Assembly (NCBI GenBank): GCA_017510405.1
Contig: JAFWNG010000013.1
Span: forward strand, 62,001 to 126,000
Length of the DNA stretch: 64,000 bases
Source: Solobacterium sp.
GTDB taxonomy: Bacteria > Bacillota_I > Bacilli_A > Erysipelotrichales > Erysipelotrichaceae
Direction of reading: 5' to 3'
Position numbers and translations under genes: made by a program. Each line of letters begins with the position of its first letter. The first letter of the stretch is position 1. Under the pieces are notes generated by a model. The model was not told where the DNA came from. It saw nothing but the letters and a program-made list of their open reading frames with translations, and ran no database searches. Positions 50,983 through 58,494 of the stretch are shown one piece after another.

Positions 50983-50988
50983 TACAAC

Positions 50989-51215
50989 AGCGTTGAACAG
51001 GATAAGTAGCGGTTCTGCGATCCGGAACAGAGACATCCCGGCCGGTGAAAGGGAGCGGAAAACGGAGCTGTGAATACACCTGGGAGCTTCCTGCCTCAAA
51101 AGACAGGACGTGTGCGCCTGCGTTAAAGGCATAGATGAGAGTGCAGCATTTCTGCTGCAAACTAAGGTGGTACCGCGCTGAGGCGTCCTTAGATGAGAGG
51201 GCGCCTTTTTATACG
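50989..51215 (+). promoter_or_regulatory. Tyrosine T-box riboswitch upstream of tyrS
   Basis: The T-box sequence AAGGTGGTACCGCG is at 51164-51177. The specifier codon TAC (Tyr) is at 51075-51077 in GAATACACC, flanked by GAGCTG and GGGAGC stem arms. A terminator with AGGCG (51181-51185) and CGCCT (51202-51206) plus a T run follows and competes with the antiterminator. Uncharged tRNA(Tyr) should relieve termination and raise TyrS synthesis. Confidence 0.92.
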
Positions 51216-55269: not shown

Positions 55270-56913
55270 ATGAGTGAAAACACGTCATCGAAAGTCAAAC
55301 AGTCATTTATTGCCGGTTCTTTAACGAGCAGTGCCGGCATCTTTGTTTCCAAACTGATCGGATTATTCTATATCATTCCGTTCAAGGCAATAGCCGGACA
55401 GGAGAACATGGTTTTCTACTCGTCCGCTTTTACCTATTACAATGTGCTGCTGCAGATCAGTTCCGCCGGCATTCCGTTCGCGATCGCGGCGCTCGTCGCA
55501 AAGTATATCAACCGCAATGACTACCGGACAGCCATTCTGGTCAGAAGGCTTTCCACAGCGATCCTGATGGTATCGGGATTCGTCATGGCAATGGTCTTCA
55601 TGATGGTGTCCGGGCCGCTGTCCAGGTCTGTGCTCGGAGAAAACGCGACGGCGATCGACCTGAAGCAGATGCAGAATACATTTGTCATTCTGTCGCTGGC
55701 GCTGTTCCTGGTGCCGATCCTGTACAGTTACAGAGGCTACTACCAGGGCATGAAGGAGCTGAAATCCTATGCCGGTTCACAGGTCATCGAACAGTTCGGA
55801 CGCGTTGCGTTCCTGCTGTTCCTCGGCTGGCTTGCCGTCTATGTGTTCCACATGCAGCGGATCTTTTCCATCTATACTGCGGTGCTTGCGACTTCGCTCG
55901 GCTGTACATGCGCGCTCATCTACTATATATGGTTTGACCGGAAACATTTCGGTGCTGTTATGGAAGCGGCCAGAAACCAGGGACCGTCCGATGTCACGAA
56001 GAGAGAGATCGTGATGGAGTTCATCTCTTTCGGTCTTCCGTATCTGCTGGTATCGGTCCTGGGCAACTCCCAGACGCTGATCAATACGCAGTTCTTCATC
56101 CCGATGAATACGCGTCTCGGTATGGAGTATGATACGGCAAAGCTGCTGTACAGTATCATTGAAGTCAACTGCGACAAGCTGACGTCGATCCCGCAGGTAT
56201 TATCGATCGGCTTCTCGGCCGGCATCGTCCCGTATATGACCATTTCACTGGAAAACAGGGACTGGCGTGCACTGAACCGGAATATTGAAGACTGCATCTG
56301 TACAGTGCTGTATATTGCTCTGCCGATCTGCTTTGCCATGTACGCACTGGCCCGGCCGGTGTATTACATCATGTACGGCGGCGGGGAACTGGACTACGGC
56401 ACCGAATGTCTGCGCTGGGCAGCGTGGCTGGCGCTGGCAACGACGATCACTCCCATCTGCAACTCCATGATGCTGACGCTGCGCTTCCGCCGTCAGAGCA
56501 TCGGGTATCTCGGCGTAGGCTTTGTGGTCAAGTGCGTCACGTTCTATCCGCTCCTGAAGATGGTGGGATACCAGGGTGCGATCCTGTCGAGTATTCTCTG
56601 TTCGGCAACGATCATCTTCCTGAGTCTGTCCAAGATCAAGAATCAGTTTGAAGTGCGCTACAGCGCGATCGTACGCAAGACCATCCGCATGCTGGTCGGC
56701 TGTCTGTGCATGAACGGCGTATTCGTACTGCTGAAGATCTTCGGCATCGATCTGGCAGCCGGCTCCCGTCTTATGGCGCTGGCAGGACTCGCGGTGACGG
56801 GCATGGCAGGTGTCGGCGTATATCTGTTCGTGACCGGCATCATGCGTCTGCCGCAGTCGATCTTCCACATGTCGCTGAAGAGTATGGCGAAGAGGATCCT
56901 GAGACGGGCATGA
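55270..56913 (+). CDS. murJ: Lipid II flippase of the MurJ/YtgP family
   Basis: 547-residue MATE/MVF-type membrane protein with about 14 predicted segments. The start AGSLTSSAGIFVSKLIGLFY, the repeated IPFAIAALVAKY and the loop GYYQGMKELKSYAGSQVIEQ are typical of the YtgP group. It is followed by an rsuA-type gene, the B. subtilis ytgP-ytzG order. Exports lipid II for peptidoglycan synthesis. GGAAGAC precedes the ATG. Confidence 0.85.
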   Translation: MSENTSSKVKQSFIAGSLTSSAGIFVSKLIGLFYIIPFKAIAGQENMVFYSSAFTYYNVLLQISSAGIPFAIAALVAKYINRNDYRTAILVRRLSTAILMVSGFVMAMVFMMVSGPLSRSVLGENATAIDLKQMQNTFVILSLALFLVPILYSYRGYYQGMKELKSYAGSQVIEQFGRVAFLLFLGWLAVYVFHMQRIFSIYTAVLATSLGCTCALIYYIWFDRKHFGAVMEAARNQGPSDVTKREIVMEFISFGLPYLLVSVLGNSQTLINTQFFIPMNTRLGMEYDTAKLLYSIIEVNCDKLTSIPQVLSIGFSAGIVPYMTISLENRDWRALNRNIEDCICTVLYIALPICFAMYALARPVYYIMYGGGELDYGTECLRWAAWLALATTITPICNSMMLTLRFRRQSIGYLGVGFVVKCVTFYPLLKMVGYQGAILSSILCSATIIFLSLSKIKNQFEVRYSAIVRKTIRMLVGCLCMNGVFVLLKIFGIDLAAGSRLMALAGLAVTGMAGVGVYLFVTGIMRLPQSIFHMSLKSMAKRILRRA

Positions 56914-57605
56914 GACTGGATAAACTGCTGGCCAATATGGGTTACGGCACCCGTAATGAGGTCAGGAAACTGTGCCGGGAACGCCGCGTCGCCGTCAACG
57001 GAACGATCGTGACAAAAAGCGATGCGAAGGTCGATGAGGAAAAGGATACCGTCACGCTTGACGGCGTACCGGTCCTCTATGAGAAATACACATACTTTAT
57101 GCTGAACAAACCGGCCGGCTTCATCAGCGCCACGGAAGGAAATGAACCGGTCGTCATGGATCTGATCACGGAAGGGATCAAGGGACTGTTTCCGTGCGGA
57201 CGTCTGGATAAGGATACGACCGGACTGCTTCTGATCACCAATGACGGGGATCTGGCGCATGCACTGCTTTCGCCGAAGAACAATGTCGAAAAGGAATACC
57301 TGGTAGGAACGGAGAAGCCGGTCACCGAAAGCGACATCCGGAAGCTGGCGCAGGGCATTACGATCGACGGCGGCGTTGTCTGCAAGCCGGCGGACTGCAT
57401 TCCCGTAAACGAAAAAACATGCCGTCTGATCATCCGGGAAGGAAAGTTCCACGAAGTCAAACGCATGCTGGAAGCACTGGATAACCGCGTCGTGACGCTG
57501 AAGCGTCTGCGCATGAAGACGCTGGTGCTGGATGAAACACTTGCCGAGGGAGAATACCGCCCCCTGACCGAAGAAGAGATCGCATCACTCAGAGGATCTG
57601 AGTGA
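56910..57605 (+). CDS. rsuA: Small-subunit-type rRNA pseudouridine synthase (RsuA family)
   Basis: 231 residues. N-terminal S4 domain (RLDKLLANMGYGTRNEVRKL) and catalytic domain with the essential Asp in GRLDKDTTGLLL near residue 95; FHEVKRMLEAL near 180. Makes pseudouridine in 16S rRNA. Start ATG 56910 overlaps the murJ stop (ATGA); the long upstream frame lies inside murJ. Its last 17 bases overlap the convergent ispH coding end. Confidence 0.9.
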   Translation: MRLDKLLANMGYGTRNEVRKLCRERRVAVNGTIVTKSDAKVDEEKDTVTLDGVPVLYEKYTYFMLNKPAGFISATEGNEPVVMDLITEGIKGLFPCGRLDKDTTGLLLITNDGDLAHALLSPKNNVEKEYLVGTEKPVTESDIRKLAQGITIDGGVVCKPADCIPVNEKTCRLIIREGKFHEVKRMLEALDNRVVTLKRLRMKTLVLDETLAEGEYRPLTEEEIASLRGSE

Positions 57606-57618
57606 TGCTTATTTTTTT
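57582..57618 (+). terminator. Intrinsic terminator of rsuA built into two coding ends
   Basis: GCATCACTCAGA, loop GGA, TCTGAGTGATGC, then TTATTTTTTT. The 12-bp perfect stem carries the stop codon of rsuA and the stop codon of the opposite-strand ispH. Confidence 0.88.
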
Positions 57619-58494
57619 CGTGACCAGCTCGCCGGTCTCGGCATAGTGCTGCAGAGCCTGTATGACGCCGGCAGTGAGAAGATTCGGGGTGGAGGAGCCG
57701 CTGGTGACGGCAATGCGCTCATATCCGCGTATATCTTCTTCCCGCAGATCTTCTTCCGAATCGATCAGAAGGGCATGCGGGATGCCGTGGGAAAGACCGA
57801 TCGCCTTCAGCTGGCCGGAGTTATTGGAGCGTCTGTCGCCGACCACGATGAGAAGATCCACGTTCTCCAGCGCCATGACCGCTTCCTGGCGGATGCGGGT
57901 GGCCGTGCAGATCTCTTCGGCGATCACGGCATCGGGATACTTCTTCCGGCAGGCGGCGATGATCTCCGCGGTATCCAGAAGGGACAGGGTGGTCTGGCAG
58001 GTGATCAGCACGTTTTCCAGCGGCGGCAGTTCTTCCGCCTCTTCGATGCTGGTGACCAGATGAACGCGGTCGGAAAGGGATACGGTTCCTTCCGATTCGG
58101 GATGACGCTTTTTGCCGATGTAGATCACGTCGCCGGAAGAAGCGTGCCTGCGGACAAGTTCGTGCGTCTTCGTGACGTCTTTGCAGGTGGCGTCGACGAC
58201 GGTCAGGCCTTTTGCTTCGGCCTTGCGGCGGACGGCGTCGCTGACCCCGTGGGCAGTGAAGATGACGACTCCTTCCTTCACTTCGTCGAGAAGCTCCAGA
58301 CGTGTTTTTGCCGGGTCTTCGACAAACTGTATGCCGAGGGCGCGGCAGGCTTCCACGACAAAGCGGTTGTGCACGATCATGCCGAGCATCGTGACCGGCT
58401 GACCGGGGTATTTCTGCACGGTCTCGCGGGCGATGCGGATGGCTCTGACAACGCCGGCGCAGTAGCCGCGGGGAATCACGCTGATAATTTCCAT
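57589..58494 (-). CDS. ispH: 4-hydroxy-3-methylbut-2-enyl diphosphate reductase
   Basis: 301-residue [4Fe-4S] enzyme, last step of the MEP isoprenoid pathway. The three cluster cysteines are in RGYCAGV near residue 12, DATCKDVTK near 102 and EEICTATRIRQ near 193; the substrate-binding SSTPN near 268 is also present. The ATG at 58494 with GGAGG 6 bases upstream is preferred; the longer frame to 58554 lacks a ribosome site and crosses the promoter. Confidence 0.94.
   Translation of the reverse strand: MEIISVIPRGYCAGVVRAIRIARETVQKYPGQPVTMLGMIVHNRFVVEACRALGIQFVEDPAKTRLELLDEVKEGVVIFTAHGVSDAVRRKAEAKGLTVVDATCKDVTKTHELVRRHASSGDVIYIGKKRHPESEGTVSLSDRVHLVTSIEEAEELPPLENVLITCQTTLSLLDTAEIIAACRKKYPDAVIAEEICTATRIRQEAVMALENVDLLIVVGDRRSNNSGQLKAIGLSHGIPHALLIDSEEDLREEDIRGYERIAVTSGSSTPNLLTAGVIQALQHYAETGELVTKKISITQIL

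Follow-up and report, generated by a model that had tools for sequence, protein, structure and literature searches.

The window, by which we mean the whole 64,000-nucleotide stretch of Solobacterium sp. DNA analysed here (from a 3.27 Mb genome assembly, G000), contains two convergent genes whose coding sequences run into one another. On the plus strand, positions 56910..57605 encode a protein of 231 aa that ends in ...ASLRGSE before its stop codon and that sequence and family profile searches identify as an RsuA-type pseudouridine synthase. On the minus strand, positions 57589..58494 encode a protein of 301 aa that ends in ...ISITQIL before its stop codon and is assigned to IspH by its sequence and the IspH equivalog profile. 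The two coding sequences overlap by 17 bp (57589..57605), and across this overlap lies a perfect 12-bp hairpin with a GGA loop (57582..57608, plus strand), which we call element J. Its arms, GCATCACTCAGA (57582-57593) and TCTGAGTGATGC (57597-57608), form 12 of 12 pairs around the 3-nt loop; the ispH stop codon (57589-57591) is part of the 5' arm and the rsuA stop codon (57603-57605) part of the 3' arm. On the plus strand the stem is followed by the T tract TTATTTTTTT (57609..57618), the same bases of which are the KKI codons of ispH, and hairpin and T tract together occupy 57582-57618. An earlier note on this DNA had described the block at these coordinates, together with the 17-bp overlap and the use of the same bases to encode both C-termini (SLRGSE stop and SITQIL stop), and the sequence and the coordinates of the two genes bear it out on each of these points.

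The start codon of rsuA overlaps the stop codon of the gene upstream (55270-56913) in an ATGA arrangement, which suggests translational coupling of the two, as judged from their sequence. That upstream gene encodes a SpoVB-like membrane protein (TIGR02900, below cut-off). Elsewhere in the window, at 50984-51193, there is a T-box leader (RF00230, 118 bits), the sole Rfam match of the window at the gathering threshold.

Element J has the anatomy of an intrinsic terminator, that is, a stable stem-loop with a U tract directly behind it, and this anatomy supports the prediction, already made in the earlier note, that it is the intrinsic terminator of rsuA, which is the most likely reading. The plus-strand RNA of the region folds with -25.8 kcal/mol over 61 nt (z -4.82), and none of 200 shuffled sequences was as stable. 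In 400 kb of the same contig we counted 7 stems of 12 perfect base pairs that enclose a loop of 3-8 nt, whereas five first-order Markov sequences of 400 kb each gave 0, 0, 1, 1, and 2; none of the 7 lies wholly within a single called coding sequence, and element J is the only one that spans the 3' ends of two genes. A simple scan of 14 kb listed 26 terminator-like sites (10.3 in shuffles), among which element J has the longest stem.

The history of the junction was examined in 102 loci, comprising 66 distinct junctions with both genes, 30 duplicates, and 6 loci without an RsuA match; one of the 66 (L090), in which the RsuA match lies 1068 nt off, is excluded from later counts. The genes overlap in 62 of the 66 distinct junctions, and within the genus in 28 of 30 loci, by 6-74 bp. 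Element J itself was found only in the genome of the window and in a sister species (G004, locus L002; dG <= -12), the IspH proteins of which are 84% identical. Judged from these sequences, the overlap of the coding sequences is old and the hairpin is young. The two versions of the block differ by 8 substitutions within 32 nt. In the sister, a C-G pair has become T-A through substitutions in both arms and is thus compensatory, one A-U pair has become G-U, one inner pair is lost, one change falls in the loop, and three changes create two new outer C-G pairs as the T-rich tail shifts. Among 20000 random mutants with an equal number of changes, 0.145% were as stable as the sister hairpin, and when both reading frames and their stops had to be retained the figure was 3 of 4000. 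The rarity of such mutants indicates that the structure of element J has been under selection since the split from the sister species, and not earlier. Deep conservation of element J was considered and rejected; the other J-type hairpins (dG <= -12) belong to separate groups.

The protein ends that share this block are variable. Across the genus the C-terminal residues of RsuA and IspH differ. The full-length profile matches to IspH (301 residues) stop at 282-287, and the RsuA-family match that extends furthest reaches residue 228 of 231, with most stopping earlier; the last residues of the two proteins fall beyond the family profiles or at their margin. On this sequence evidence, element J appears to occupy protein tails that are otherwise free and that tolerate the block in both proteins, and the constraint would act on base pairing in the RNA and on the stop codons of the two genes. 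The proposal in the earlier note that both C-termini and the RNA structure are jointly constrained therefore stands in part: the pairing has been held in the sister species, and a deep joint constraint on the two C-termini is not supported. That note had looked to related genomes for compensatory changes and had named unrelated sequence under the same gene order as a result that would refute it. A compensatory pair is present in the sister species, and the other relatives lack the hairpin; relatives that share the gene order and the overlap do carry unrelated sequence at the block, which overturns the idea of a deep joint constraint and bears on that deeper claim only.

That element J is absent from most relatives is what might be expected if it were a chance palindrome, or a by-product of overlapping frames, without a role in termination. 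We regard this as very improbable given the low chance expectation for such stems, the pairing kept by the sister through its substitutions, and the origin of J-type hairpins at the same junction in four separate groups. Terminator hairpins additionally protect 3' ends, and the rsuA stop codon lies within the stem, so one may also ask whether element J acts on the mRNA mainly as a 3'-end stability element (exonuclease protection) or a translation-termination element rather than as a terminator. This, too, is improbable, since the T tract directly adjoins the stem and the sister retains a shifted T-rich tail (ATTTTCTTT) while the stem changes.

As for the direction in which element J acts, its T tract is present in the rsuA direction only. 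In the ispH direction the tail GATCTCTTCT (57572..57581, minus strand) is pyrimidine-rich with a weak U tract, containing 4 T among its first 8 bases, and hence there is no U tract on both strands as a bidirectional terminator would have. The element passed the loosest scan in this direction and failed the stricter one. Within 300 nt no ispH-direction hairpin passing the stricter scan was found, and in the window the ispH transcript has no separate terminator that is convincing. A bidirectional terminator, at which the transcripts of both genes end, would accord with the symmetry of the stem and with the pyrimidine-rich minus-strand tail, and no other strong hairpin lies close to the stop codon of ispH; furthermore, such terminators are described between convergent genes (PMC7566282; PMC12207403), and in one Erysipelotrichaceae clade (L083, L084, L085, L089) the J elements are flanked by T-rich tails in both directions. 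Against it stand the composition of the tail, the failure in the stricter scan, and the A-U pair that became G-U in the sister, a change that leaves the rsuA strand paired and would give the ispH strand an A.C mismatch. We hold the bidirectional reading to be a serious possibility, if a somewhat doubtful one, and the safe statement is that element J is a predicted terminator for rsuA with a possible weak effect on ispH. In the clade just mentioned, the overlap between rsuA and ispH measures 4 nt and is spanned by a long hairpin; from its sequence and its two T-rich tails, this hairpin is likely a bidirectional terminator that contains both gene ends.

A scan of 65 loci revealed recurrent hairpins deeper within the opposite gene. 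One of these, element B (site in the window 57513..57551, minus strand), is a predicted ispH-strand terminator that lies within the rsuA codons for MKNLxLDExLAPG; an example reads ACCTGGTGC...GCACCAGGT followed by TTTTC on the ispH strand, antisense to MKNLVLDE.LAPG. At its anchor and with dG <= -9, element B is present in 18 of the 64 tested loci, where shuffling of synonymous codons within the gene predicts 2.5, and the codon-shuffle p is <= 0.01 in 16 loci. At least 8 of 9 pairs form in 17 of 65 loci, whereas re-dealt arms gave 5.5 and, in 5000 rounds, never more than 13. The arms covary, with several pair types at four positions, and amino-acid changes match between them (for example, P to L with V to I). 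The window lacks element B at its site, where the codons read MKTLVLDETLAEG.

The second recurrent hairpin, element A (site 57691..57730, plus strand), is an rsuA-strand hairpin with a T tract, antisense to the ispH codons for RIAVTSGSS; the T tracts are often the KNKN codons of ispH. It is found in 26 of 60 tested loci at dG <= -9, with 7.4 expected. Since the protein sequence by itself makes a hairpin likely, p for single loci is often 0.1-0.4, and the comparison of codon identity is partly circular since carriers were selected by pairing. We therefore rejected element A as a proven terminator and keep it as a candidate, with a weaker case than that of element B. The window has no element A at the anchor; a looser hairpin overlaps the site (-14.6 kcal/mol, codon-shuffle p 0.17). 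These anchored tests, run in 60 loci for element A and 64 for element B, supersede an unanchored synonymous-shuffle scan on account of the wide range of the latter, which gave 49 of 61 loci for A (24.3 expected) and 34 of 61 for B (11.6 expected) and skipped five loci (L021, L038, L082, and L085, with short coding sequences, and L090).

Of 64 loci, 10 carry a hairpin of the J type (dG <= -12) at the stop codon of rsuA. On an IspH tree of 64 rows, from which L082 is omitted due to its short IspH, they form four groups ({L001, L002}, {L022, L068, L023}, {L049}, and {L083, L084, L085, L089}), in three of which the hairpin includes the ispH end as well. On this tree A and B change at least 14 times each and J at least 4 times. 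Neither A nor B is present in 8 of the 10 J loci, whereas 31 of the 54 other loci have at least one of them; the contingency p of 0.04 is uncontrolled for the tree, on which only 2 supported independent pairs are found. The window and its sister are both without A and B at the anchors. In the lineage of the window, J may have replaced A/B. None of A, B, and J is present at the thresholds used in 23 of 64 loci, so that either other signals are present there or the thresholds miss some.

The case that shows embedding in the opposite gene most clearly lies outside the window. A 400-kb sample of the same genome contains 33 convergent pairs, and the other overlapping one joins an RluB-like synthase and an RqcH/fibronectin-binding-like protein, with an overlap of 34 nt (G000 contig C33 331684-334043; L149:11684-14043). 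On the rluB strand, the hairpin ATACCGGGACGCGCTCCCGGTAT followed by TTTTTT is antisense to the rqcH codons KK-I-P-G-A-R-P-G-M; in the genus these codons take the form KKIPGA(K/R)PGM. The genus provides 65 usable rqcH loci. In 54 of them rqcH overlaps a gene for an RluB-like protein. The hairpin is present in 52 of the 54, including L235, which the motif filter missed and the scan listed; L229 and L244 overlap and lack it. In 8 loci (L227, L232, L236, L239, L240, L241, L246, and L247) the overlapping neighbour is a different short gene of about 90-105 aa, probably ParB-like when its sequence is judged by eye, and the hairpin is kept in all 8. The three remaining loci do not overlap: L173 and L175 have no hairpin and have predicted terminators in the spacer, and L245 has the hairpin. 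Thus, the hairpin is present in 60 of 62 overlapping loci versus 1 of 3 non-overlapping ones (Fisher p 0.008, not controlled for the tree).

Codon shuffling in the first 30 rqcH loci, 28 of which form at least 8 pairs, gave per-locus p values of 0.022 to 0.116, with p <= 0.05 in 12 loci and p <= 0.01 in none. The loci are individually weak, and the strength of the case therefore lies in repetition and covariation. All 8 outer pairs form in 60 of 64 loci (L235 being omitted by the motif filter), compared with 15.7 for re-dealt arms (maximum 28), and one pair is seen in all six standard types. The non-Watson-Crick cells on the rluB strand are 24 G-U versus 2 A-C, an excess that points to the transcript antisense to rqcH as the RNA that folds. 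Outside this genus, 0 of 29 RqcH loci sampled within the class show the complete PGxKPG form, though each half of it occurs there. More speculatively, the sequence comparison raises the idea that the RqcH residues themselves may be tuned for the hairpin.

No Rho passes the profile cut-off in any of 70 genomes of the genus, and the two weak matches tested in the genome of the window are the ATP synthase subunits AtpD and AtpA. On these grounds Rho-dependent termination as the default was rejected for canonical Rho; the genus may possibly have a very divergent Rho. The 400-kb sample of the window genome has 373 called genes and is 88% coding. A terminator-like match lies near the stop of 133 of these genes, with the stem starting at a median of 8 nt past the stop codon; the scan is loose, as 20 control windows inside coding sequences also matched. 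The 31 stems that extend into the coding sequence, several of which are convincing, make a stop codon within the terminator stem a usual arrangement in this genome. Such a pattern would fit an RNA polymerase that outruns the ribosomes. In Bacillus subtilis, 3' ends lie at a median of 38 nt past the coding sequence, a short distance that has been taken to suggest that transcription and translation may be uncoupled (PMC12207403).

Hairpins that terminate transcripts at stop codons are known, as are terminators that act in both directions and convergent transcripts that overlap, and the elements described here are related to these arrangements. Like the intrinsic terminators of Bacillota with a short or negative distance from stop to stem and runaway transcription, element J has its stem and U tract at a stop codon, but the bases of its stem further code for the C-terminus of a second, convergent protein and hold both stops. 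It shares a symmetric hairpin at a convergent junction with the bidirectional terminators mentioned above; those described, however, sit between genes with A/U tracts on both sides, whereas element J lies inside overlapping coding sequences and has a one-sided U tract. Convergent transcripts that overlap and are mutually antisense are described as overlapping 3' UTRs or an excludon (PMC7154746), and for sbrB and lexA in Staphylococcus aureus it is reported that read-through of a terminator yields antisense RNA (PMC8745188). As the coding sequences of the window overlap by 17 bp, rsuA and ispH mRNAs that include both stops must overlap, and longer overlaps of the two transcripts are predicted in relatives from the sequences of A and B. 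Elements A and B and the rqcH element differ from the excludon in being predicted conserved terminators within opposite codons, not cases of read-through or of an absent terminator. In purine-biased genes, the pyrimidine-rich antisense strand promotes termination by Rho (PMC13323073). There, too, the strand composition of one gene decides termination antisense to it, but that mechanism needs Rho, which is not recognizable in this genus, where a hairpin and a U tract would act instead. A full-text literature search, mostly without subscription journals, yielded no paper that describes, in its title or the opening of its abstract, conserved terminators embedded in the codons of a convergent neighbour.

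Taken together, we consider it very probable from these sequence comparisons that the block is an intrinsic terminator of rsuA formed within overlapping convergent coding sequences, one of several solutions that include the rqcH element and elements A and B. While RNA polymerase moves out of rsuA, the final seven codons and the stop would fold into the 12-bp hairpin, and the U-rich stretch, which on the other strand gives the KKI codons of ispH, would release the transcript near 57614-57618. Because the stop codon lies in the stem, RNA polymerase would have to outrun the ribosome and the hairpin to fold on ribosome-free RNA. The hairpin probably evolved in variable C-terminal tails, where only the stop codons and the RNA pairing would matter. 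The anatomy, the pattern of conservation, the covariation, the association with overlap, and the lack of a recognizable Rho are direct observations; termination itself is predicted throughout, and the order of gain and loss is inferred, as is folding on RNA free of ribosomes. On the mechanism that the evidence favours, where coding sequences overlap without a spacer and no Rho is recognizable, intrinsic terminators must lie in coding DNA. They could be placed at shared stops where the tails are free, as J would be in the window, or in the body of the neighbour where the codons permit a palindrome and then A-rich codons, as would be the case for B, the rqcH element, and perhaps A. Whether terminators embedded in the codons of a convergent neighbour are a standing solution in this Rho-less genus, maintained by compensatory substitutions in codons and locally by which amino acids are used, with the hairpin of the window as a derived form, is a proposal on which we find the balance of probability even.

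If this is true, the sequences of conserved proteins have been shaped in part by an RNA signal on the antisense strand, through an ispH terminator written into MKNLxLDExLAPG of RsuA and an rluB terminator written into KKIPGAKPGM of RqcH. Terminator predictors and annotators normally search between genes and past stop codons, and the signals described here lie in coding DNA, are conserved across the genus, and would account for which codons, and perhaps which residues, two unrelated proteins use. The genus also offers a natural experiment, in that almost all close relatives overlap, a few do not, and the embedded hairpin largely tracks the overlap. Two testable questions are thereby opened, namely how converging transcripts are terminated without Rho and whether signals that act on transcription of the opposite strand may steer the evolution of a protein.
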